Shown here: in pieces, positions 16,371 to 53,646 of the stretch | How the letters are laid out: every line of letters starts with the position of its first letter | Position numbering within the stretch: the first letter of the stretch is position 1 | Source of the DNA: an uncultured Spirochaetales bacterium | GTDB taxonomy: Bacteria; Spirochaetota; Spirochaetia; Sphaerochaetales; Sphaerochaetaceae | Reading direction: 5' to 3' | NCBI GenBank assembly: GCA_949283235.1 | Contig: CASDRY010000061.1 | Span: 1-59,140 of the forward strand | DNA: 59,140 bases | Made by a program: the position numbers and the translations under genes | The notes under the pieces: generated by a model | What the model saw: the letters and a program-made list of their open reading frames with translations, nothing else | Told to the model about the DNA's origin: nothing | Database searches by the model: none

Positions 16371-16413
16371 ACCATGAGTATAAGAGTATTCTGAAAGTAA
16401 CGCTATATGTAGG

Positions 16414-16684
16414 TTTTCCACAGGTTTTCCACAGCTCGGTGGAAATGATGTGGAAAAGTGGAAAAATAAGGAAGAAAAGGCGGTTTTGCAATAATTCGTT
16501 CAATATTGTAATTTGTGATTTAATTACTTGTTATATAAATAATTAACAAAACAATTTAAAGTGTGGATAACATAAAATTTATATAAGATTAATTGAAAAA
16601 ACATGCTATTTTAAGCTTGTGGAAAACGAGTTTTCCCCAGAGTTTTCCACAGGTTTTCCACAGGTAAGCGTTTAGTTATCCACA
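16414..16684. other. Second DnaA-box cluster with AT-rich core (candidate oriC)
   Basis: About ten DnaA-box-like nonamers are arranged in two groups. The left group has TTTTCCACA at 16414 and 16425, plus inverted forms at 16449 (TGTGGAAAA) and 16457 (AGTGGAAAA). The right group has TGTGGATAA at 16562, TGTGGAAAA at 16618, TTTTCCACA at 16643 and 16654, and the exact consensus TTATCCACA at 16676. Between them, about 16488-16612 is almost pure A/T. Boxes flanking an AT-rich core is origin architecture. The whole 16371-16750 gap has no gene. It lies 10 kb from dnaA and is at least as box-rich as the dnaA-dnaN gap. Confidence 0.7.
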
Positions 16685-16750
16685 ACCTCTTAACTGACAG
16701 TAATTACTGTAATTAGATAGGTTAAATTAAAAATATCAGGACTTATGCTT

Positions 16751-27195: not shown

Positions 27196-30100
27196 TTATT
27201 CTTCCTCATCATCCCTGAGAAGTTCTTTCAGCTTGTAACCGCTTTCCATTTCCTTCTCCATGAGAGTTTTGATGTATTCATCAGGATTGAAATCCTTTGA
27301 TTTCGGAGAAAGTGCGAATGATAGTGCTGATAGCAGTATCACCCTCTGCATCTGCTCCTTGTTGTACCAGATCTCTCCCTGATACTCATTGCATTGAGTA
27401 AGGTTCTGTACTCCTTCATCACTCATTATCTGAGTAAAGAGCTTCAGGCTGGACATTCCTTTCTGATAATCTCTTCCAGCTGTTGTAAGTATTGCGGCAG
27501 AATGTATTACAGCTCTTCTCTCGTTCTCTCCATATGCGAGCTCGTTGAACTCATATTCGAAGAATGAATCTATGAGAAGTCTGTCTGTCTCCTCCATCGT
27601 GCCTCTTATATCGAGATTCTCGATGAATGGATAAAGCACAAGAGATGAGGCAATGGTTAGAACCAATGCATTATCTGCTCCTGCCCATGCAGGGAAGGCC
27701 TTTCCTTTCTTCTCGGTGAAAAGCGATGCCAGCGTCCTTATGAGCTTGATCATCGGTTTAGGCTCGATTTCAACAGGTTTTACACTAATCTGACCCTTTG
27801 CAGGTTCTTCCAGAGTCTCATATACCTCAGGAATCATGGTGTAGCATTCAGCAATCGAAAGAAGAAGTTCTCTTTCCCCTTCTTTTGATAGCCTTCCATT
27901 CACCATATCTGTTATATGCTTCAGAGTTTCCTGAGAGCGTAGCATCTCCATTGCTTTGAAAAGCGGTTCAAGGCGGAGAAGGGCCACAGCCTTTGATATA
28001 TTCCTGATTCCCTTCCTTCCGTACATTCTCCAAAGCCTTTCATAGCTTCCATCGGTATCCTCAACCTGCCTTATATTCCAGTACACTCTCGCTTCATAGC
28101 CCTTGAGTGAGAATGAGAATCCCTCATCGTAGAGCTGCATTGAAGGAATGATGTATGTCAATCCATCGGAGAAGCAATCAAGAAGTGCGTAGTTCCTGCC
28201 TCCGAATGAAAGTCCCAGGCTATCTGCAAGCTTTGTCGTGACTGTTGTTCTTGTATCATGATCCTTCTTCAGCTTGGGTGAAGATACGCTTATGTTTCCT
28301 CCGCATTCCTCATACTGGTTGTTGACAAGGATAAGAGTGCGTTCGGAATCTGTTCCGTTCACGAAAGCATAAATCGATTCCTCGATGCCTCCGTTCTGGT
28401 TATAGCAGTCAAAGAGCTGGAAATGATCTACTCCAGAGAATAAGTATCTTCTTCTGAAGAGGGGGAAGATCCTTCTATAGTGCTCTCCGACAAGCCATCC
28501 ATTTGGCTGTTCGTTGTAGTAGGCTCTCTTATACTCCATGCCATACTTCTCATGGTAGCCTTCAATCTGACCATGTCCTACCATCGGAAGACCTGGAAGA
28601 GTTGCAAGGAGCGTGCAGACGGCAAAGTATTTGTCTCCATCTCCGAACTGGGCTATTGCTGTCTCCTCATCAGGGTTGTTCATGAAGTTGACATAGCGCT
28701 TAAGAATCTCGGGCTCAAATACAAGCGTGTTCTTGATGCCAAGCCTGTATTTCTGATTCTCCTGATTCTTCAGCATGTTCATGAATGCAGAGTTATAAAC
28801 TCTGTGCATGCCAAGTGTTCTTACGAAGTAGCCTTCCATCATCCAGAAAGCTTCTGCGAGAAGAAGGGTATCTGGGACTTCCTGGGCGACTCTGTCAACG
28901 ACTTCTCTCCAGAACTCCTGTGGAATACGGCGATTGAATTCCTCGTCACTCATTGCATAACGAGCTCTTCCCGCTATATCACCGCCATGTCCAGGCTTTG
29001 GATACCAAAGTCTCTGTATATGTCTCTTTGCGAGAGTCATGGCTGCATCGAAACGTATTATAGGGAAGTTCCTGGCTACATGAAGAATTTTCTGAATGAC
29101 AGCTTCTCTGGTAGTCGGATTGAGATAATCAAGCTGAGCTGTATCATTCCAGGGCATCGATGTTCCATCATTTCCATGGAATATATACCTTGTCTGTCCT
29201 GTGCGTTTATCACGGAGCATGAAAGTTACAGCGGCATCTGTCCTGTCATAGTAATGATCTTCAATCTTCACCTCATAATCCGGATTATTAGATAGATCAG
29301 GGCCATTGTATGTATAAGAAGGATATGGTGGCCAATCCTGCTGCACGAAGTAATCTGGATGCTCATATACCCAGTTCCCATCGATTCCTGTATGGTTTGG
29401 AACCATATCAGAAGCAAGCCTGATTCCTCTTGCCTTGCACCTCTCCCTTAGATTGTCGAGAGATGCCCATCCTCCTATTGCCGATGAGATTTCATAATCT
29501 TTCAGGGAGTAAGCCGAAGCTTCTGCATCAGGGTTGCCGCAGAGATTCTTTATCTTCTTCGATGCCTCTGATCGCTCCCATAGACCAATAAGCCAGAGAG
29601 CTGTGAAGCCTCTTTCTTTCAAGAGATCCAATTCCTCATCTGGAATCTGGTCAAGCCTTGTTATTGACCTCTTGTATTGTTTTGAAAGCTGGTCAAGCCA
29701 TACAAGAGTACATTTCGCTATCATGACGACACGAGGCATCCAGTTTGAATCATCAGAGAAGGCCTCATACTCATTGAGTTCGCTTTCAGAGTAGTTGATA
29801 ACCTGTGTCGGTCCTCCGCCTCCACCGACTCCGCCTCTGTCTTTTTCCTCTTCATGAATGTAATCGAGGGAAGTCTCCAAGAGTCTTATCAGATAGGAAG
29901 GAAGCAGCGCGCTCCATTCTCTGAGAATGTATCTGATCTGTTCCTCGAGGGAATTCGGATAGAGACGCGCAGGAAGCTGAAGCATTGTGAAGATATCATC
30001 AGTATTAGGCTTTCCATTTCTCAGATCATCTTTCACATAAGATGAGAGAATACTCGACAGAGCTTTGTACTCCGGTGGATAGATTATCTGGTCAGGTGAG

Positions 30101-30564
30101 ACGAAAGGCTTTGAAGCTGCTAACAAAGCTGGGTTCTGGAGCATAACCTGATGAATGAAGAAGCCTCTCATATCTTCTGTCATTCTCTTTGCGGCATCTG
30201 GTTTCTTCTCTTCAAGAGCAGGAGAAGGGAAAGTACGTGAGTAGAAACCTAATGCGTTTGATAGCTCCTCGTTTGATGCAACTGTAGCGATTCGTCTTGT
30301 GAAGAAATCACCTTGGCCATCATCCATTCTCGCTGTCAGTACAATCTGATAAATCAGATGCAGTACGGCAGAGGCATGAAGCTTTCCCGGGGAAACAAAT
30401 CCGCTTTCAGCTCCAGTTCGTTTTAATTCAGAGTTATATCTGTACGCAAGAAGGGAAGCTTCCCTGTACAGCAGGTCGAGACTTTCATCAGTTGGAAAGA
30501 CCGATCCGTTAATTTTGATTTTCTCCCTTGTGATCAAGGGGATTCTTAAATCCCTTTTTTCCAT
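27196..30564 (-). CDS. Very large GH13 (alpha-amylase family) enzyme
   Basis: A 1122-residue protein. The N-terminal 240 residues are helical and unrecognised. A glycine run (GGVGGGGG, 244-251) links them to a GH13 TIM barrel (about 275-760). Region I is DMVPNH (386-391), region II RFDAAMTLAKRH with nucleophile Asp506, and region III LLAEAF with acid/base Glu571. Region IV reads FMNNPDE (627-633) instead of the usual NHD: the Asp is kept but His is replaced. About 360 C-terminal residues follow. No signal peptide is present, so it should act on intracellular alpha-glucan or maltodextrin. The NxPD form recalls maltosyltransferase-type GH13 members, so a transferase is possible. It is a single gene flanked by terminators. 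Confidence 0.8.
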   Translation of the reverse strand: MEKRDLRIPLITREKIKINGSVFPTDESLDLLYREASLLAYRYNSELKRTGAESGFVSPGKLHASAVLHLIYQIVLTARMDDGQGDFFTRRIATVASNEELSNALGFYSRTFPSPALEEKKPDAAKRMTEDMRGFFIHQVMLQNPALLAASKPFVSPDQIIYPPEYKALSSILSSYVKDDLRNGKPNTDDIFTMLQLPARLYPNSLEEQIRYILREWSALLPSYLIRLLETSLDYIHEEEKDRGGVGGGGGPTQVINYSESELNEYEAFSDDSNWMPRVVMIAKCTLVWLDQLSKQYKRSITRLDQIPDEELDLLKERGFTALWLIGLWERSEASKKIKNLCGNPDAEASAYSLKDYEISSAIGGWASLDNLRERCKARGIRLASDMVPNHTGIDGNWVYEHPDYFVQQDWPPYPSYTYNGPDLSNNPDYEVKIEDHYYDRTDAAVTFMLRDKRTGQTRYIFHGNDGTSMPWNDTAQLDYLNPTTREAVIQKILHVARNFPIIRFDAAMTLAKRHIQRLWYPKPGHGGDIAGRARYAMSDEEFNRRIPQEFWREVVDRVAQEVPDTLLLAEAFWMMEGYFVRTLGMHRVYNSAFMNMLKNQENQKYRLGIKNTLVFEPEILKRYVNFMNNPDEETAIAQFGDGDKYFAVCTLLATLPGLPMVGHGQIEGYHEKYGMEYKRAYYNEQPNGWLVGEHYRRIFPLFRRRYLFSGVDHFQLFDCYNQNGGIEESIYAFVNGTDSERTLILVNNQYEECGGNISVSSPKLKKDHDTRTTVTTKLADSLGLSFGGRNYALLDCFSDGLTYIIPSMQLYDEGFSFSLKGYEARVYWNIRQVEDTDGSYERLWRMYGRKGIRNISKAVALLRLEPLFKAMEMLRSQETLKHITDMVNGRLSKEGERELLLSIAECYTMIPEVYETLEEPAKGQISVKPVEIEPKPMIKLIRTLASLFTEKKGKAFPAWAGADNALVLTIASSLVLYPFIENLDIRGTMEETDRLLIDSFFEYEFNELAYGENERRAVIHSAAILTTAGRDYQKGMSSLKLFTQIMSDEGVQNLTQCNEYQGEIWYNKEQMQRVILLSALSFALSPKSKDFNPDEYIKTLMEKEMESGYKLKELLRDDEEE

Positions 30565-30650
30565 TCCAACCCTCTTTGCATTTAACTATATCATAGCATA
30601 GCAATGAGGGCTCTTTTAAGCACGATTTAGACGTTTTAACGCATATGTGG

Positions 30651-31496
30651 CTATTTCGTTGATATAACAAGCCCCAGAAGAGTAAGAAGAGTTCCAGCTC
30701 CAGAGGAAAGAGTTATAGGTTCGTCAAGGAAAAGAGCTGAGGAGATTACCGTAACAACAGGGACAAGATATATAAATACACTTGTTTTGATAGCCCCTAT
30801 CTGTCTTACAGCTATGTTCCAGAGTACAAAACAAAGTGCAGAGGCCATTATTCCTAGAAACGCAAGATTAAGTATATTGCTTGCAGTGAAGATATTTCTT
30901 GCATCTCCATGACCATGCCAGAAAAGCATCGCAATTGATATGAACACCAGTCCATACAGAAAGGATCTTCTTGTTGTCTGTATTTCAGAGTAGCCGAATG
31001 TGCTTATTTTCTTTGTCAGGATCGCGTAAATGCCCCATACTGCTGCAGCTCCAAGGGAGAGAAAATCTCCCAAAAGACTGCTTTGGGAAACTTCTAATGC
31101 TGAGAAGCTCATTAAAAGTATTCCTATGATTGCAGAGACGAAGCCGATGAAGAACCACTTATTCTTCTTTTCCTTTGAAAAGAGTGCTGTGAAGAAAGGA
31201 GCTGTCGATACGATTACTCCTGTGTTTGAGGCACTTGTCCAGATTAATGAGATATTCTCAAGAAAATAGTACAGGAATATTCCAGATATGCCGGCGGCTA
31301 TGAAATATTTCTCCTCTTTCCATCCTTTGCTTTTCAATATATGAGGGGATATAACGAATAAGGCAATTGTTCCTATTGCAAATCTGATGAAGAGAATCTC
31401 AACAGGGGTGAATGTGTTAAGAAGCAGTTTCGTGGAGACAAAGGTGATGCCCCAGATAAGAACGGTTATTGTTGCAGCAACGTATCCTGTTTTCAT
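30651..31496 (-). CDS. EamA/DMT-superfamily permease
   Basis: A 281-residue protein with ten predicted membrane helices in two EamA repeats: residues 1-130 (starting TGYVAATITVLIWGITFVSTKLL) and 145-280 (LLGDFLSLGAAAVWGIYAILTKK, ending FLDEPITLSSGAGTLLTLLGL). Family members export or import amino acids, nucleobases or drugs; the substrate cannot be named. It is the last gene of a leftward reductase-pth-permease run and overlaps pth by 4 bases. Confidence 0.85.
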   Translation of the reverse strand: MKTGYVAATITVLIWGITFVSTKLLLNTFTPVEILFIRFAIGTIALFVISPHILKSKGWKEEKYFIAAGISGIFLYYFLENISLIWTSASNTGVIVSTAPFFTALFSKEKKNKWFFIGFVSAIIGILLMSFSALEVSQSSLLGDFLSLGAAAVWGIYAILTKKISTFGYSEIQTTRRSFLYGLVFISIAMLFWHGHGDARNIFTASNILNLAFLGIMASALCFVLWNIAVRQIGAIKTSVFIYLVPVVTVISSALFLDEPITLSSGAGTLLTLLGLVISTK

Positions 31497-32017
31497 AAGA
31501 CAGATATTTCTCTCTCATCTTCTGGACTGTCAATAAGCGGTCTTATCCTGGAAAATAAAGTTTTAAGGATAATTGCTTCATCCTTTTTGAAAGGGGAGGT
31601 TACATACAGCCTTACATCTCCATGCACTGGTCTTCCTATTCCTACTCTCAGACGATAAAAGCCATCGGAGCCAAGACGTTCTTTTATATTCCTGAGTCCG
31701 TTATGTCCTTGTAGTCCCCCTCCTTTCTGGACTTTGGCTTTACCAAGGGGAAGCTCTAGATCATCATGGACAATCAGAATCTCATCTGCTTTCAGTTTGT
31801 AAAATGATGCAGCCTCCGAAACTGCCGTTCCTGAGAGATTCATCATGGTCATTGGCTTTATAATCTTCCTTCCCCCTTCTTCTGTGAAAGCTGAATGGAA
31901 CTTCACTTTCCAGGAAGCATATGGATAAAGCTCATCTGAAAGGAGAAAGCCTGCATTGTGCCTTGTTTCTTTATACTCTTTTCCTGGATTACCAAGGAAA
32001 GCTACCAGACGGATCAT
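31493..32017 (-). CDS. pth: Peptidyl-tRNA hydrolase
   Basis: Pth releases peptides from prematurely dissociated peptidyl-tRNA. The 174-residue protein is slightly shorter than the usual 185-195. Family motifs are present: FLGNPGKEYKETRHNAGF with the catalytic His in RHNAGF, PMTMMNLSG, IVHDDLELPLG and GGLQGHNGLRNI. It overlaps the gene before and after by 4 bases, indicating tight translational coupling. The usual neighbour rplY is absent. Confidence 0.95.
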   Translation of the reverse strand: MIRLVAFLGNPGKEYKETRHNAGFLLSDELYPYASWKVKFHSAFTEEGGRKIIKPMTMMNLSGTAVSEAASFYKLKADEILIVHDDLELPLGKAKVQKGGGLQGHNGLRNIKERLGSDGFYRLRVGIGRPVHGDVRLYVTSPFKKDEAIILKTLFSRIRPLIDSPEDEREISVL

Positions 32018-32568
32018 GCTTCTATGAAACTCAAGAATCTTTCGGCCTGATCCTCAAGCTTCCTCCTTCTGTCGTTATCCAGATATAGTGTATCCGATGA
32101 GAACTCTTCAGGAGTAAGGCTTATTGAAGTCTCTTCTCCATCCATGTGCTTCATCTTCATGAAAATAGAGAGTTCTGAAAGCCTTTTTCTTGCATTAGCA
32201 GCCCCGCTCTTTCCTCCGGCTCCTGAAAGTGTGACAGGAAGCCCTGTAGCTGCAGAGATTCTTTCCGGATCTCCTTTGACAAGCGGTCTTGATAACCAAT
32301 CCAGAAGATTCTTCAGCACTCCCGGTATATTGAAGTTGTATTCAGGTGAGAATATCCAGATACCATCTGCGCTCATCACCTCATCCCTTATCCGCTTCAC
32401 GGCTTCGGGGGCAGGATACTCTATGTCCTGATTCATGAAAGGGATGTCTGAATAATCCAGAAAAGAAACTTCCGCTCTGTTTCCGATTATAGCGGCAGCA
32501 CTTTCAGCTAATGATTTATTGAAAGAGTTCTTTCTGAGAGAACCCACTATGAAAAGAATCTTCTTCAT
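32014..32568 (-). CDS. NADPH-dependent FMN reductase family protein
   Basis: A 184-residue flavodoxin-fold protein. The N-terminal phosphate-binding loop is VGSLRKNSFNKSLAE. The central PEYNFNIPGVLKNLLDWLSRP motif, typical of NADPH-dependent FMN/quinone/azo reductases, is well conserved, followed by LSGAGGKSGAAN. It probably reduces flavins or quinones in the cytoplasm; the physiological acceptor is unknown. It is first in the reductase-pth-permease unit, with an AGGAAAA-like site upstream. Confidence 0.85.
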   Translation of the reverse strand: MKKILFIVGSLRKNSFNKSLAESAAAIIGNRAEVSFLDYSDIPFMNQDIEYPAPEAVKRIRDEVMSADGIWIFSPEYNFNIPGVLKNLLDWLSRPLVKGDPERISAATGLPVTLSGAGGKSGAANARKRLSELSIFMKMKHMDGEETSISLTPEEFSSDTLYLDNDRRRKLEDQAERFLSFIEA

Positions 32569-32642
32569 AATTTTTCCTCATAGAGAATATAGCTGATGCA
32601 AGGACGGCAGAAAAGTAATGAATTGGGTTGGAATCAGTTGGT

Positions 32643-32740
32643 TTTCAGTTGATAATCAGGTGGTAAAAATAACTAATTATTTATAATACAAGAAATATAA
32701 TCAGTTGAATTTTTTAATTTGCAGTTGATTTTCAGTTGAA
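32643..32740. repeat. 98-bp direct repeat, left copy, with TCAGTTG iterons
   Basis: This 98-base block recurs at 34312-34409 with only 3 mismatches and no gaps. It contains TCAGTTG-like motifs starting at 32645, 32656, 32701, 32721 and 32732; one more at 32634 lies just outside. Steps are 11, 11, 45, 20 and 11 bases, close to whole helical turns. It also contains a perfect TATAAT. It ends 45 bases before the AlbA_2 regulator start, so it is the likely promoter/operator of that gene. Confidence 0.9.
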
Positions 32741-32784
32741 TAATAATAATTTTGGATTTAGAATTCTTTATAGAAGGAGTTATT

Positions 32785-34311
32785 ATGACTGCGGAAACTA
32801 AGTATAAAGTGATCTCAAATCTTCTTGATAACCTAAGCAAAGAAGGACTGGAAGTGGAATTCAAGGAAGCATCTTATTCCATTCCCCAATCAATGTGGGA
32901 GACTGTATCAGCTTTTGCTAATACAAATGGCGGTGTAATAATTCTTGGAGTAAAGGAAAAATCCCATGTATTCACAGTTTCAGGTATCGCAAATGCAGAG
33001 AAGATGGAAGCTGATTTCTGGAACACTATCAGAAATAGAAAGAAGATAAGTCAGTTATCAATAGGTTCACATTCTTTTGAGATATTGGAGACGGAAGATG
33101 GAAAGCAGATAGCCCGTATTTCGATTCCCCAGGCTGATGTCTCAGAGCTTCCTGTTTTTCTGAATGGAAATATGAGTGAGACTTATATCCGTCGGGGAGA
33201 AGGGGATTATCAGGTGAATCCAGAAGAGCTTAAAGCGCTTATCCGTAATAGCAGTCCTAAAAGCAATGATCGAAAAACACTGGAAAAACTTTCAATTGAC
33301 GATCTTGATAGAGTAGCTCTCCGTAATTTCAAAGCAATAATTGAGGACAGATATCCAGAAGGGGCTTATGAAGATATGAAAATGCAGGATTTTCTGCTTC
33401 ATTTAGGACTTCTAGATGATTCCGATAAAGATAATATCTGTCTTTATGCAGGAACTTTGCTGCTTTTTGGAAAGTACAATACAATAAAGAAATACTTCAA
33501 TTCATATCAGCTGGATTATTTTGATTACAGGGGAGCTTCCAATCGCTGGATAGATAGAGTGTCCTCTGATGATCTCGGGTCAGGGGAGATGAATATATTC
33601 AATTTCTACAACGTTGTGTACCAGAAACTTGCAATAGTGGCAAAATCAGGATTCAAGCTGGATGAGAATATGGTGAGAGTTAATACCGATATAAAGGAAG
33701 CTCTCAGGGAAGCTCTTGTGAATGCTTTAGCACACGCAGATTATTCCATTCCTAACGGCTGTGTCAGAATTGAGGTCTATGATACATATTATAAATTCGA
33801 GAATCCCGGGAAGATGCTTATTCCTGCAGAGAAATTCTTCAGGGGTGGAACAACTAAATCTCGCAATGATGTGATAATGTCATCATTCCGCAGAATTGGT
33901 TTATCTGAAAGGCAGGGGTATGGAGGTTACCAGATATTCAGAACAGTAATCAACAACAAGTTCAGAACCCCAGAAATCTTTACATCCCTTGAGAAAACTG
34001 TTCTCACGCTATGGCTTGTGGATTTTCCTGGTTCTTATCCTGATCTTCCTGCTGTGGAGAAAGATATTCTATCGATACTTACTCGTTCCAGTTTTCTCTC
34101 AAAAGGGGAGATTGAAACTATTCTTTATGATAAATACACGGAGTATAAGATAAAGAAAGCCCTTAAAGAGCTTGTTGATAGGGGTATTTTGATAATTTCA
34201 GGAAGGGGGAGATCAATAAAATATTCTATTAACTTTACTACGGCAGAAGGGCTTGGTCAGATAAGGCTTCTGATGGATAGATTGACAGAACTTGTTAGTA
34301 AAAAGGATTAA
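32785..34311 (+). CDS. AlbA_2-domain transcriptional regulator, repeat-flanked
   Basis: A 508-residue protein of the Schlafen-AlbA_2 / divergent AAA-4 type, annotated in bacteria as putative DNA-binding regulators. The N-terminal AlbA_2 domain has EFKEASYSIPQSMWETVSAFANTNGG at about 28-53. The middle part has a GHKL-like HATPase_c_4 domain (REALVNALAHADYS, then FENPGKML). The C-terminal winged helix (about 435-500) includes SKGEIETILYDKYTEYKIKKALKEL. The ATG at 32785 is preceded by GAAGGAG. Upstream and downstream lie near-identical 98-bp repeats carrying phased motifs, which it plausibly binds (inference). A paralogue with the same domains lies at 52.1 kb. Confidence 0.82.
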   Translation: MTAETKYKVISNLLDNLSKEGLEVEFKEASYSIPQSMWETVSAFANTNGGVIILGVKEKSHVFTVSGIANAEKMEADFWNTIRNRKKISQLSIGSHSFEILETEDGKQIARISIPQADVSELPVFLNGNMSETYIRRGEGDYQVNPEELKALIRNSSPKSNDRKTLEKLSIDDLDRVALRNFKAIIEDRYPEGAYEDMKMQDFLLHLGLLDDSDKDNICLYAGTLLLFGKYNTIKKYFNSYQLDYFDYRGASNRWIDRVSSDDLGSGEMNIFNFYNVVYQKLAIVAKSGFKLDENMVRVNTDIKEALREALVNALAHADYSIPNGCVRIEVYDTYYKFENPGKMLIPAEKFFRGGTTKSRNDVIMSSFRRIGLSERQGYGGYQIFRTVINNKFRTPEIFTSLEKTVLTLWLVDFPGSYPDLPAVEKDILSILTRSSFLSKGEIETILYDKYTEYKIKKALKELVDRGILIISGRGRSIKYSINFTTAEGLGQIRLLMDRLTELVSKKD

Positions 34312-34409
34312 TTTCAGTTGATAATCAGATGGTAAAAATAGCTAATTATTTATAATACAAGAAATATAATCAGTTGAATTTTTCAATTTGCAGTTGATTT
34401 TCAGTTGAA
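34312..34409. repeat. 98-bp direct repeat, right copy
   Basis: It begins at the base after the AlbA_2 gene's stop codon and matches 32643-32740 at 95 of 98 positions. Motifs TCAGTTG (34314), TCAGATG (34325), TCAGTTG (34370), GCAGTTG (34390) and TCAGTTG (34401) keep the same 11-45-20-11 spacing. It lies 108 bases before the next gene, so it could place that gene under the same control. Confidence 0.9.
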
Positions 34410-34455
34410 ACGGAAATTTGGATACAATTAATCAGTAAGTTGTATTCTCTTCCGC

Positions 34456-34485
34456 TTAACCAATAATGGGGTATCGGGCTAGAAT
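34456..34485 (+). promoter_or_regulatory. Candidate promoter of the small membrane protein
   Basis: TTAACC (34456-34461) and TAGAAT (34480-34485) are 18 bases apart, about 32 bases before the ATG at 34518, which itself has TTTGGAGGTGG upstream. The -35 is imperfect. Confidence 0.35.
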
Positions 34486-34517
34486 GTAGCTGCAATATAC
34501 ACTTTGGAGGTGGAAAT

Positions 34518-34928
34518 ATGGCAACTGGAAAAGTAAATGGGGATTTCATCCTCAAGATACTTGTCGGTATTCTTTTTGTTGTTATCGGTATCGAGGGTAT
34601 TGCCGATTTCGGAGGGAATGCCATCTATGATGAGCTCGATGAGCCTTTTAACATCATTGTCGGTGTGGTTCTCCTTGTAGCAGGTCTTCTTCTGATAGTT
34701 CCTTCTTTCATCGGTGGAATCAAGGCTTCTTTCGTGAAGATCTCAACACTTGTTGTCCTTGTCGCTTGGATTATCTTCATTCTTCTTGAAGATTTTATCT
34801 ATGGACTTAGTGGTCTTAATGGAGATGAGTGGTTCCTGTGGATCGAGGATCTGATCTACCATCTTCTCATCCTTTACTGCATCTATCGTGTAGCAACTCC
34901 TGCAGTACGCAAGCTTGGTAACAAGTAA
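34518..34928 (+). CDS. Small four-helix membrane protein, unknown
   Basis: A 136-residue protein with about four membrane helices: 11-30, 45-66, 75-95 and 113-130. The second and third are joined by a short loop (FIGGIKASFVK). Acidic residues lie in the first and third loops (YDELDEPF, NGDEWFLW). I do not recognise a family. It has a strong ribosome-binding site and a promoter-like pair, and lies downstream of the right 98-bp repeat, so it might be a target of the AlbA_2 regulator. It converges with nth with no gap between the two stop codons. Confidence 0.6.
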   Translation: MATGKVNGDFILKILVGILFVVIGIEGIADFGGNAIYDELDEPFNIIVGVVLLVAGLLLIVPSFIGGIKASFVKISTLVVLVAWIIFILLEDFIYGLSGLNGDEWFLWIEDLIYHLLILYCIYRVATPAVRKLGNK

Positions 34929-35594
34929 TCAGCGATTTCTTATAACCCCCTTCTTAGGACACTGTTCGTTTTCAGGACAGAGCGAGCAGAAAGGGGATAC
35001 AGGAGTACAGATTTTCTGCCCATAACGGACAAGGAGCTCATTGAGTGGTATCCAGAACCGTCTGGGCAGGATTTCTCTTAGTCTTTTCTCTGTTTCTTCA
35101 GGAGTTTTTGTCTCAACCCAGCCAAGACGATTTGCTATTTCATGTACATGACAGTCCACGCATACGGCATCGATACCATATCCAAGGTTAAGGACGAGGG
35201 AGGCTGTCTTTATTCCGACTCCTGGAAGGGAAAGAAGCGTATCCATATCATTAGGGACAATGCTGTTGTAGTTGTCGCGGATAATTATTGCAATCTTTTT
35301 AAGCTGCTCGCCTTTTCTTTTGTAGAAACCTGCGGGTTTTATAGCCTCTGCGATTCTTTCGCTATCAAGTTCAGCTAGCGTATTTATATCAGGAGCAATC
35401 TGGAACAGCCTTTTCGAGGCTTCGAGTGTTACCTCATCTTTTGTTCTAAGACTTATGATTGTGGAGGCAAGCACTTTGTATGGATTGCTATCCTCCTCTG
35501 CGATAGTACTGACAGAAGGAAGGGGAGAGCCTATTTTCCTTAGCTCCTCGCTGAAAGAATTGAAAATTGAATCAACATATTTCTCGTCAAGCAT
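34929..35594 (-). CDS. nth: Endonuclease III
   Basis: Nth is a bifunctional DNA glycosylase/AP lyase that removes oxidised pyrimidines. From ATG 35594 it has 221 residues, the normal size. The helix-hairpin-helix LPGVGIKTASLVL contains the catalytic Lys. The catalytic Asp follows in VCVDCHVHEIANRLGW. The C-terminal iron-sulfur cluster has the spacing C-x6-C-x2-C-x5-C (in CTPVSPFCSLCPENEQC). The frame is open for 70 more residues upstream, but that part lies antisense in the aroF-pheA gene and does not match the family, so it was rejected. It diverges from that gene across 46 bases. Confidence 0.93.
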   Translation of the reverse strand: MLDEKYVDSIFNSFSEELRKIGSPLPSVSTIAEEDSNPYKVLASTIISLRTKDEVTLEASKRLFQIAPDINTLAELDSERIAEAIKPAGFYKRKGEQLKKIAIIIRDNYNSIVPNDMDTLLSLPGVGIKTASLVLNLGYGIDAVCVDCHVHEIANRLGWVETKTPEETEKRLREILPRRFWIPLNELLVRYGQKICTPVSPFCSLCPENEQCPKKGVIRNR

Positions 35595-35604
35595 TTTTTC
35601 CACG

Positions 35605-35633
35605 TTGACCAAATCATCTGGAAAAGCTAGCGT
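35605..35633 (+). promoter_or_regulatory. Possible aroF-pheA promoter with minimal leader
   Basis: TTGACC (35605-35610) and the weak TAGCGT (35628-35633) are 17 bases apart. The ATG is only 7 bases further on and has no visible Shine-Dalgarno sequence. A nearly leaderless message is implied if this promoter is used. The assignment is tentative. Confidence 0.3.
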
Positions 35634-35640
35634 TTTCCGT

Positions 35641-37566
35641 ATGATTGTCATCCTAAAACAGGGTATTACACCCCAGGAAAAAGATAAAGTAAGATCCTTT
35701 CTCTCAGAGAAGGGTTTCATTGTAAAGGAAATCGTCGGACAGCAGGATACCGTACTTGGCGCTGTTGGCAAGGTTTCGATAGATCCGAGAACTGTAGAAC
35801 TCATGCCAGGGGTAAGTTCTGTAGTCCCTATTTCAAAACCTTATAAGCTCGCATCCCGCGAGATGAAGAAAGAGGACACGATTGTTCAGGTAGGAAAGGT
35901 CAAGATCGGAGGAAACAGAGTAGCTGTGATAGCTGGTCCTTGTGCTGTTGAGAGCTATGACCAGGTAATGGCAATTGCTGAATCTGTAAGAGAGGCCGGT
36001 GCTGTAATGCTTCGAGGAGGAGCCTTTAAGCCAAGAACAAGCCCGTATGCTTTCCAGGGTTTGGGAGAAGAAGGACTTAAAATCCTCAGGAAAGCTGGAG
36101 ATGCCTTTGATATGCCTATTACATCAGAGGTTGTTTCTCCTTCCGATGTTAAGATGATGGCTGAGTATGTTGATATGTTCCAGATCGGAGCCAGGAACAT
36201 GCAGAACTTCGAACTTCTGAAGGAAGTCGGGAAGACAGGTATGCCAGTTCTTCTCAAGAGAGGACTAGCTGCAACTATTGAAGAGTGGTTGATGGCTGCA
36301 GAGTATCTCATGGCATCCGGAACCGATCAGGTAGTTCTTTGCGAAAGAGGTATAAGAACATTCGAGAAGGCTACCAGAAATACACTCGACTGCTCTGCAA
36401 TTCCTGTCGTGCAGAAGCTTACCCATCTTCCTGTTATAGGGGATCCTTCCCATGCTACAGGTATAAGAGACATGGTAGCTCCTATGAGCCTTGCAATCAT
36501 CGCATCCGGAGCTTCCGGTGTGATTGTAGAGGTTCATAACTGTCCTGAAAAAGCTTTTTCAGATGGTCCTCAGTCTCTTTATCCTTCACAGTTCAAGAAG
36601 CTTGTTCATGATATCCAGGCGCTTTGTCCTGTTGTGGGAAAGAGCCTTGAGAAGATACCTCGCATTATTCCTGCTGGAATGAAGACACAGGAGGAAGAGA
36701 AGAAAGAAGCAGGGGATTTCTCTTCTGTTGTTGTTTCCTTCCAGGGTGTGAGGGGTGCATTCTCTGAACTTGCAGCAAGAAGATCATTTGATGAGAGCGT
36801 GACACTTCTTCCTTGCCATTCATTTGCGGATGCGTTCGATGCTGTCTCGTCAGGAAAAGCTAAATATGGAGTTCTCCCTGTTGAGAATACCCTAGGTGGA
36901 ACTGTTTATGACACTCTTGATCTCCTTGCAATGCATCCGGAGCTTACAGTTGTCGGAGAGCAGCAGGTAAGGGTAATGCATAATCTTATAGTTACACCTG
37001 GTGCAAAGATGGAGGATATCAAGAAAGTATATTCACATCCTCAGGGAATCCAGCAGTGCAAGGCATTCCTTGATAGCGAACTTCCAGATGCGGAGCGTAT
37101 CCCATTCTTTGATACAGCCGGAGCTGTTGAGTACATTTCAAAGCTTGGGGACAAGTCGGTTGCCGCAATAGCAGGTGCTCCAGCTGCTCATTATTATGGT
37201 ATGGAAGTGCTTCGACAGGGTATAGAAACAGATGCCTCCAACTATACTAGATTCTATATTCTCTCCAGGGAGGAGAATGCTGAGGTTTATCGCTCGCAGG
37301 AGAAGCTCAATAAGGCGGCTCTCTCATTCTCTGTCTCCGATGAACCAGGTTCTCTGATGGATGTTCTGAAGACGATCTCTGATTATGGTGTGAATATGAC
37401 AAAGCTTGAGTCCCGTCCTATTCCAGGAAAGCCTTGGGAGTATCTTTTCTTCGTGGAGCTTGATCTTCCAGAGGAAATGAAGAAGTTTGATGAGCTTGCG
37501 GAGGATATTAAAGCAAAAGCTGTCTCCTTCAGGGTTCTTGGTGTATATACTTCTGTAATAGGATGA
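35641..37566 (+). CDS. Fused DAHP synthase and prephenate dehydratase
   Basis: A 641-residue fusion of the first enzyme of the shikimate pathway with the phenylalanine-branch dehydratase. Residues 1-70 are the ferredoxin-like N-terminal domain of type I-beta DAHP synthases. Residues 75-345 are the TIM barrel (AVIAGPCAVES, GAFKPRTSPYAFQG, GDPSHATG). Residues 360-530 are a PheA domain (FQGVRGAFSELAA, LPVENTLGGTVYD). Residues 555-640 are an ACT domain with the ESRPIPGKPWEYLFFVEL phenylalanine-binding region. No chorismate mutase domain is seen. The ACT domain suggests feedback by phenylalanine, possibly on both activities. Start ATG 35641 matches the family N-terminus; a longer in-frame start would run back through nth. 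Confidence 0.92.
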   Translation: MIVILKQGITPQEKDKVRSFLSEKGFIVKEIVGQQDTVLGAVGKVSIDPRTVELMPGVSSVVPISKPYKLASREMKKEDTIVQVGKVKIGGNRVAVIAGPCAVESYDQVMAIAESVREAGAVMLRGGAFKPRTSPYAFQGLGEEGLKILRKAGDAFDMPITSEVVSPSDVKMMAEYVDMFQIGARNMQNFELLKEVGKTGMPVLLKRGLAATIEEWLMAAEYLMASGTDQVVLCERGIRTFEKATRNTLDCSAIPVVQKLTHLPVIGDPSHATGIRDMVAPMSLAIIASGASGVIVEVHNCPEKAFSDGPQSLYPSQFKKLVHDIQALCPVVGKSLEKIPRIIPAGMKTQEEEKKEAGDFSSVVVSFQGVRGAFSELAARRSFDESVTLLPCHSFADAFDAVSSGKAKYGVLPVENTLGGTVYDTLDLLAMHPELTVVGEQQVRVMHNLIVTPGAKMEDIKKVYSHPQGIQQCKAFLDSELPDAERIPFFDTAGAVEYISKLGDKSVAAIAGAPAAHYYGMEVLRQGIETDASNYTRFYILSREENAEVYRSQEKLNKAALSFSVSDEPGSLMDVLKTISDYGVNMTKLESRPIPGKPWEYLFFVELDLPEEMKKFDELAEDIKAKAVSFRVLGVYTSVIG

Positions 37567-38087
37567 TTCCAAGACCTTACGATAAAGCAATGCTTTTTAT
37601 GGGAGTCCTCTCAGTGAGGGGATTCCCGGAGAATCTTAAAGCGCGTCTTGAAAAACTTTTCGGACCTGTCTCGGTTATAACGCCTTCGATACCTTTTGAT
37701 TTCACCGATTATTACAATAGTGAGATGGGTGAAGGAATAGAGCGCTTCTTCATAGCTTTTGATAACCTTGTCTCTCCTGATACTCTTGCTGATATAAAAA
37801 CAGCTACAGATGAGCTTGAGCTTGATTATGCTATTGATGGAAATAGGCATATAAATCTGGATCCAGGACTTATTACAGAAGGGAATGTAATTCTCGCAAC
37901 GACAAAGAATCGGTCGCATCGGATTGCTATAGGGCGTTCGTTGTATGCAGAAGTGACGCTTATTTACCATAGCCATGGCTTTGAATCCTTTCCATGGACG
38001 TATGCAGATTATCGTTCGGAAGCGGTCCAAAACGAGCTTTTGATGCTTCGTAAGCGCTACTTATCATTAAGAAAACTGTCAAAATAA
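37563..38087 (+). CDS. DUF4416 family protein
   Basis: A 174-residue cytoplasmic protein matching the DUF4416 pattern, a family of unknown function. Visible conserved blocks are KAMLFMGVLSV near the N-terminus, FDFTDYYNSEMGEGIERFFIAF, NLDPGLITEGNVILATTKNRSHRIAIG, and a C-terminal FPWTYADYRSEAVQ. No metal site, membrane helix or signal peptide is evident. It overlaps the aroF-pheA gene by 4 bases (ATGA), so it is co-translated; a link to aromatic biosynthesis is not established. Confidence 0.75.
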   Translation: MIPRPYDKAMLFMGVLSVRGFPENLKARLEKLFGPVSVITPSIPFDFTDYYNSEMGEGIERFFIAFDNLVSPDTLADIKTATDELELDYAIDGNRHINLDPGLITEGNVILATTKNRSHRIAIGRSLYAEVTLIYHSHGFESFPWTYADYRSEAVQNELLMLRKRYLSLRKLSK

Positions 38088-52113: not shown

Positions 52114-53646
52114 ATGGGAATGGATTTCAGTAGGTATAAGGAATATAGAGAAGGCTATCGTATAGAAGCTAAGAGTGCATTGCATGGACTTCCCAGCTCA
52201 ATATGGGAGACGTACTCTGCATTTGCCAATACCTATGGCGGTGTCATTTTGTTGGGTGTCAAAGAAGCTGAGGATGGTTCTTTCATTCCTTCTGGAGTAA
52301 AGGACACCGCACCATTAAAGAAAGCTTTCTGGAATACTGTAAATAATCCAGACAAAGTATCTGCAAATCTAGTCTCAGATAGTTCGGTTAAGACTTTTTA
52401 CGATGGTGAATATGAAATGCTTGCTATCGAGATACCTAGAGCAAGAAGAGAGGATCGTCCTGTTTTCCTGAATGATAATCCGTACAAAGGAACTTATCGC
52501 AGAAACTATGAAGGGGATTATCGTTGCTCAAAGAAAGAAGTTAATGCAATGATCCGCGATAACGCTTCAGATAGTTCTGATTCTTCTATCCTTACGGATC
52601 TTGATTTTGATTGTCTTAACAAGGAGACGATAGCAAAGTATAGACGCCGTCATGAGATTTTCTCTCCAAAGCATCCCTGGATAAATCTTCCATTGGAGCA
52701 GTATCTTCTTATGATTGGAGCCGCAGGAAAAGCGGAAGGAAAGCTGTATCCAACAGTTGCTGGTATTCTCATGTTTGGAAATGACTGGTGTATTACAAAT
52801 GTGTTTCCAGAGTATTTTGTGGATTACAGATATTATGAGAATGAATCAGAAACAGATTGGATAGATAGATTGTGTTCATCTACAGGTACATGGTCTGGAA
52901 ATCTCTGTGATTTCTATTTTGAGGTTCTCTTTAAGCTGGAACGAATTCTCGAAGTTCCTTTCAAATTGAAAGAGGCTGGAAATGTATTGATCCGTGATGA
53001 GGAGACACCTGCAAGGATTGCTGTGAGGGAAGCTCTCATGAACTGCATAAGCAATGCTGACTTTTCCATTTCCTCGGGAATTGTCGTTTTATGTAAACCA
53101 TCTGGCCTGTCTCTCTCGAATCCTGGAGATATAAGGGTAGGGCTGGATGAGATGCTTGCAGGTGGAGTTTCAGATTCCAGAAATAAGGGAATAATGAAGA
53201 TGTTCAATCTTCTTGGGATAGGGGAAAGAGCTGGCAGCGGTGTTCCAAGAATCATGAAAATCTGGAAAGAACTGGATTTTGATGAACCAGAATTTGAAGA
53301 AAAGCTTGAAACTTGCCGTACAAGAATTAATCTTCCTTTCAGTGAGAAAAGAACAAAGGAGAAGTTTATCGCTGAAAAATCGGCGATAAAAATCAGCGAT
53401 AAATCCAGGATAGAGAATGAAAGGCTCTCTTCCATTCTTTCATATCTCTCTGCTCATGAAGTGGCAGATACCGCTGAAATCTCTGAAGCTATAGGGCTCG
53501 GTGCCTCAAGAACAAGACAGCTTTTAGGAATTCTCGTATCGAGAAGAGCTGTTTTAGCTATCGGAGCTAACAGAAACAGACGCTATAAGCTTAGTAGGAA
53601 GGAATTGCTTTCTGTAAGTGAAAAGATTCCTGGATATAATAATTGA
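52114..53646 (+). CDS. AlbA_2-domain transcriptional regulator, second copy
   Basis: A 510-residue paralogue of the repeat-flanked regulator at 32.8 kb. The AlbA_2 domain has YRIEAKSALHGLPSSIWETYSAFANTYGG; the HATPase_c_4-like part has REALMNCISNADFSISSG and LSNPGDIRVG. A charged linker contains EKSAIKISDKSR, a short form of the repeat linker common in this family. The C-terminal winged helix has ADTAEISEAIGLGASRTRQLLGIL. It follows the GH3 gene by 51 bases without an obvious terminator and could be read through from the fructoside operon. It lacks the 98-bp flanking repeats. ATG 52120 is an alternative start. Confidence 0.8.
   Translation: MGMDFSRYKEYREGYRIEAKSALHGLPSSIWETYSAFANTYGGVILLGVKEAEDGSFIPSGVKDTAPLKKAFWNTVNNPDKVSANLVSDSSVKTFYDGEYEMLAIEIPRARREDRPVFLNDNPYKGTYRRNYEGDYRCSKKEVNAMIRDNASDSSDSSILTDLDFDCLNKETIAKYRRRHEIFSPKHPWINLPLEQYLLMIGAAGKAEGKLYPTVAGILMFGNDWCITNVFPEYFVDYRYYENESETDWIDRLCSSTGTWSGNLCDFYFEVLFKLERILEVPFKLKEAGNVLIRDEETPARIAVREALMNCISNADFSISSGIVVLCKPSGLSLSNPGDIRVGLDEMLAGGVSDSRNKGIMKMFNLLGIGERAGSGVPRIMKIWKELDFDEPEFEEKLETCRTRINLPFSEKRTKEKFIAEKSAIKISDKSRIENERLSSILSYLSAHEVADTAEISEAIGLGASRTRQLLGILVSRRAVLAIGANRNRRYKLSRKELLSVSEKIPGYNN

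Follow-up and report, generated by a model that had tools for sequence, protein, structure and literature searches.

What is a single AlbA_2 gene doing between two nearly identical direct repeats on the chromosome of an uncultured Spirochaetales bacterium? The question is raised by the stretch of DNA analysed here, the window, which comprises 59,140 nucleotides of contig CASDRY010000061.1 (GenBank assembly GCA_949283235.1) and in which the open reading frame (ORF) at 32785–34311 of the plus strand is bracketed by repeats at 32643–32740 and 34312–34409. The original prediction, made from the sequence alone, offered two options: a mobile or excisable cassette, or a duplicated operator that places the next gene (34518) under the same regulator. 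Our results favor the former. The element is probably an autoregulated, defence-type single-gene cassette that would move as a unit and be lost via recombination between its left and right repeats. Overall, the data support a precise, excision-prone cassette that appears to be mobile on an evolutionary scale, and its ends are most likely arrays recognised by its own product.

The two 98-bp repeats that bracket the AlbA_2 gene were confirmed to be 97% identical (95 of 98 positions), with 3 mismatches and no indels. They were by far the best repeat pair found by a repeat search within 30000–38000, and the 98-bp block occurred exactly twice in the genome, both times at this locus. A gap of 44 bases separates the left copy from the ATG, while the right copy abuts the TAA, its first base being the one directly 3' of the stop codon. 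Two features had been missed by the original prediction. Each repeat is built of CAGTTGA-type heptamers with an 11-bp period (7 + 4), arranged in two clusters flanking an AT-rich core, and the left array is longer by one heptamer than the right one. In the left terminal repeat (32635–32740, plus strand), whose part common with the right copy is 32643–32740, the heptamers are located at 32635 (CAGTTGG, the extra unit), 32646, 32657 (CAGGTGG), 32702, 32722, and 32733. In the right terminal repeat (34312–34409, plus strand), they are located at 34315, 34326 (CAGATGG), 34371, 34391, and 34402. CAGTTGA was found 16 times in the window, of which 8 were inside the two repeats, and CAGTTGA-N4-CAGTTGA with at most one mismatch was confined to this locus within the genome. 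The whole cassette, from the left array through a gene for a Schlafen-GHKL-winged-helix protein to the right array, is 1.78 kb long and holds one gene. The repeats had no Rfam match up to an E value of 1, by which a known structured RNA was rejected, and no significant hairpin, with folding z-scores of -0.38 to 0.77.

The refutation test named by the original prediction was whether the repeat recurs beside AlbA_2 genes elsewhere, and it does. Among metagenome-assembled genomes of the same Spirochaetaceae genus, orthologues of the window gene (67–72% identity) were found at five loci (L046–L050), beside different genes and occupying at least four other sites. Four of them (L046–L049) possess their own left and right repeats, whose heptamers are CGGTTGA, CAGTTGA or CAGGTGA. 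Moreover, the genome of G015 contains a decayed copy at the window's own site (right side), of which the gene is internally deleted and both repeats are kept. A second subfamily is made up of P0002 and its orthologues (52–60%), P0002 being an AlbA_2 gene of about 25% identity that the same genome also contains. This subfamily has the same repeat-gene-repeat design with TTGTTTGA heptamers at about eight sites, and about nine of its members have flanking repeats. Together, the two subfamilies occupy about 13 different sites in one genus. A degenerate heptamer pattern had 22 matches in the genus, nearly all within these elements, and its reversed control had 2. At one locus (L065, G000:C104), a tandem pair of AlbA_2 genes was observed, with paired repeats around the second gene only.

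Empty sites were also found. In L077, L078, L079, and L087, the FMN reductase gene abuts the 34518 gene, with neither AlbA_2 gene nor repeat between them, and the L046 site is empty in about ten relatives, where the dipeptidase gene abuts the next gene. When sites were compared, the similarity ended at the outer heptamers and none was found beyond them. In addition, three solo repeats were identified. The first (G029:C138) matches the left repeat of the window at 81% identity across 101 bp and has no gene nearby. The second (G008:C88) is preceded by the same five genes as the full element in G022, with a different right flank, and both flanks of the third (G025:C42) match G062, where the element is full. 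Recombination between the direct arrays would excise the gene. With many sites, repeat-free empty sites and solo repeats without the gene, the cassette option of the original prediction is well supported on an evolutionary scale. A somewhat unlikely alternative is that the gene is autoregulated and immobile, that the arrays are operators homogenised by gene conversion, and that the scatter reflects ordinary horizontal transfer and rearrangement. It would agree with the overlap of the left array with the promoter described below, with sites common to sister species (L048/L049 and L242/L243), which show long vertical inheritance, and with the content of the unit, in which only the AlbA_2 gene and no recombinase gene was found. 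However, the spread of two subfamilies over about 13 different sites of a single genus speaks against immobility, as do insertions that separate genes lying side by side in relatives and a homology that stops at the outer heptamers without bringing along any donor flank.

The left and right repeats of the same element resemble each other more than those of different elements. The identities between left and right repeats within elements were 75–98% in the first subfamily and mostly 86–96% in the second, and the mean identities between elements were about 71–78%. A left repeat had its own right partner as its best match in 4 of 6 elements of the first subfamily and 6 of 7 of the second, and the true left-right pairing beat every other pairing in permutations (1/720 and 1/5040, respectively). 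At the site shared by the window and G015, the left and right repeats of the window are more alike (97%) than the left repeats of the two species are (91%). Thus, homogenisation seems to have gone on after the species split, although independent insertion at one site is a less likely explanation to be kept in mind. Homogenisation is inconstant, as L147 and L152 show the opposite pattern, with a left-left identity of 97% and left-right identities of 86–89%. Conversion or repeated exchange between the arrays may keep them alike. These homogenised arrays, together with the occurrence of both solo and full forms at the same site, would also fit an in-out cycle through a circular intermediate, in which a single-array circle would recombine with a solo array, either by homologous recombination or by an enzyme encoded elsewhere, to yield array-gene-array, so that solo arrays would be entry sites too. 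This route is quite improbable, given that relatives lacking the element at the window and L046 loci have no array there either and a first arrival would need another route.

The cassette also appears to carry its own control. A sigma-70-like promoter was predicted at 32736–32764 (plus strand), with a -35 box of TTGAAT (32736–32741), a 17-bp spacer and a -10 box of TAGAAT (32759–32764), followed by a likely ribosome-binding site, GAAGGAG, at 32773–32779 (plus strand). Its score of 11.7 was the highest within 150 bp upstream of the gene, and its -35 box falls in the last heptamer. Similarly, the best sigma-70-like promoter had its -35 box in the last heptamer in all 14 left repeats examined, which were from both subfamilies; the ATG of second-subfamily genes sits about at the expected transcription start. 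The right repeats had no common promoter placement of this kind. PhoB-type regulators bind DNA head to tail. As the -35 box lies in the last heptamer of left repeats, autoregulation by a winged helix with head-to-tail binding, itself a prediction, would fit: successive heptamers would be bound in head-to-tail fashion by the winged helix of the protein from a single face of the DNA helix, and the last heptamer of the left array, being the -35 box, would make the gene autoregulated. The right array may be the other end marker of the unit, and looping between both arrays is conceivable. Hence, the operator idea of the original prediction held in part. The left copy looks like the gene's own operator, while the right copy was rejected as an operator for the gene at 34518: the next gene is convergent at L048, L049, and L050, the 34518 gene is kept in species without the element, and the right repeat lacks the promoter placement.

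The encoded protein of 508 amino acid residues, a relative of the Schlafen RNases with which animals counter viruses, matched two Pfam families above the cut-off, SLFN_AlbA_2 at residues 20–144 (E value of 3e-14) and HATPase_c_4/GHKL at residues 327–408 (E value of 7.5e-9). Its AF2 model, built with 15 sequences, was weak overall (pLDDT of 57), but residues 421–485 had a winged helix-turn-helix (wHTH) topology with a pLDDT of about 75–90, and we are fairly confident that this modelled C-terminus is a winged helix. Foldseek matched DIP2311 (3lmm) and winged-helix regulators, with weak matches to RosR-like folds, and hmmsearch matched 3lmm as well, together with 2kyy (an AlbA_2 structure) and 5yd0 (Schlafen 8). 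Histidine-kinase-type ATPases were also among the matches of these searches. Residues E20, E25, and E58 were invariant among 15 homologues. RNA cleavage by Schlafen13 needs Glu205, Glu210, and Asp248, of which the first two are spaced as E20 and E25 (PMC5862951), and E58 is a candidate for the third carboxylate, the counterpart of Asp248. Genes with a Schlafen RNase, a minimal histidine kinase and a wHTH are reported to adjoin BREX loci, as probable backup effectors (PMC12839542). By analogy, the gene carried by the cassette probably encodes an RNase-type effector of anti-phage defence or stress. PADLOC gave weak partial pAgo-type matches at most and assigned no known defence family, NCBIfam gave no match and PHROG 12156, a family labelled 'DNA helicase', was matched. 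Among viral contigs, no close homologue was found with the window protein (P0001) as the query, and two weak matches were found with an alignment as the query. At the one site shared by L048 and L049 (4001–5524), the neighbor proteins are 95–99% identical, the AlbA_2 protein 82% and its winged-helix end 67%; the likely DNA-reading part of the protein changes fast. The window contains another gene for AlbA_2 and HATPase_c_4 at 52114–53646, which is 35% identical, has no heptamer array and whose homology ends before the winged helix.

Arrays were also associated with homologues beyond the genus. In Lachnospiraceae, homologues of about 40% identity carry arrays of CTTTTGA-N4-CTTTTGA 3' of the stop codon, one Bacillota homologue has ACGTGAG arrays, and homologues on plasmids and satellite phages have arrays upstream of the gene. 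By a shuffle test, arrays were found at 29 of 35 loci where the homology reaches the winged helix and at 1 of 16 where it ends earlier; the P value of 2e-7 is optimistic because the loci are not independent and the thresholds, set with 100 and 50 shuffles, are slightly unlike. Among control genes, 2 of 61 had arrays. Individual loci were also of note. On the Lactobacillus iners plasmid pC0094A1 (L173, 1900–2470), an AlbA_2 homologue near a ParM gene is directly preceded, on its upstream side, by seven tandem units of 87 bp, and every unit contains AATCGTGA repeats as well as a GGCTATAAATAGCC palindrome. On the Staphylococcus plasmid p59736-1 (L174, 2190–2440), 55-bp tandem units with AATCGCG-type repeats are upstream of a homologue. 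In the Streptococcus satellite phages Javan301 and Javan96 (L180 and L181), the homologue adjoins an integrase and has 11- or 12-bp repeats upstream.

Several points weigh against the mobile, autoregulated cassette proposed above. DNA binding, excision and transposition are all unobserved, and the defence role is argued by analogy from the domains. The paired arrangement is not universal, as the Firmicutes homologues have an array on one side only. L050 has a truncated gene with a left repeat and no right repeat, and the left-right match of L144 is weak. A missing gene or a collapsed repeat may partly be an assembly effect because the genus data are metagenome-assembled genomes. Finally, none of the genomes was seen to contain a pair of near-identical copies, and target-site duplications cannot be judged because the empty sites are too diverged to align. 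The last two points also bear on a further alternative, a true transposable element mobilised by the Schlafen-GHKL-winged-helix protein itself, which would bind the arrays at the ends of the element much as a transposase binds its end repeats. Sharp ends at many sites, heptamers that diversify along with the protein family and conserved nuclease-type residues would suit such an element. Given that the ends are direct rather than inverted, that multicopy genomes and target-site duplications were not seen, that relatives in restriction-modification operons (L175 and L176) have no arrays and that Schlafen domains are known as RNases, it is very doubtful. More broadly, the cassette might represent a novel type of mobile element that lacks any recognisable recombinase, in which a Schlafen-type nuclease/ATPase/winged-helix protein would recognise iteron-like direct repeats at the termini, specific to its own lineage, and use them for self-control and for movement or copying as an exact unit, a suggestion that we consider rather unlikely and offer tentatively.

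These results are the first link found between the widespread and poorly understood bacterial Schlafen family and specific DNA sites. The heptamer code offers a handle on winged-helix recognition and on the silencing of such effectors. Moreover, with a sharply delimited unit that has no recombinase, shows homogenised direct repeats and leaves solo scars, the way in which individual genes of the defence type spread from one bacterial chromosome to another becomes testable. Elsewhere in the window, at 16405–16690, DnaA-box-like sites (TTTTCCACA and TTATCCACA, in either orientation and in part 11 bp apart) were observed to cluster around an AT-rich stretch; this region, which is flanked by genes for a pfkB-type kinase and a sigma-54 activator, is a candidate chromosomal replication origin.

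The original prediction knew of no described element of this form. Our searches of the literature, which covered open-access papers, agree with this: no paper was found that describes Schlafen genes with homogenised pairs of heptamer arrays, with solo arrays or as units that move precisely. An insertion sequence or transposon with a transposase and terminal inverted repeats was rejected, since the AlbA_2 gene is alone inside the unit and the ends are direct. An integron cassette was likewise rejected. Similar to integron cassettes with their attC sites, the element is a single-gene unit with a repeat beginning at the stop codon. Different from them, its heptamers are all direct, no significant hairpin is formed, a repeat is found on both sides and no integrase or attI is nearby; the neighbors examined encode an FMN reductase, a peptidyl-tRNA hydrolase, an EamA transporter, an amylase-type protein and an HhH-GPD protein. 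Long terminal repeat elements also have long direct terminal repeats that are alike within an element and leave a solo repeat after recombination, whereas the cassette is bacterial, has no reverse transcriptase and has repeats that are arrays of likely protein sites. Plasmid iterons are short direct-repeat arrays beside a gene for a winged-helix protein, a likeness underlined by the seven tandem units by the homologue on the L. iners plasmid, but the cassette is chromosomal and a replication function is not part of the evidence here. PhoB/OmpR-type operators consist of 7-bp direct repeats with a 4-bp spacer and overlap the -35 box. The window arrays share with them the 7-bp direct repeats, the 11-bp period, the last repeat at -35 and a winged-helix protein, a likeness of geometry alone: the cassette has no response regulator, its arrays are at both ends of the gene and their sequence differs per lineage. 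Finally, the domains and their order are like those of bacterial Schlafen proteins of the COG2865 type (AlbA_2, GHKL/HATPase_c_4 and winged helix), and the invariant acidic pair is spaced as in Schlafen13. Many operon members of that family, however, are without arrays.
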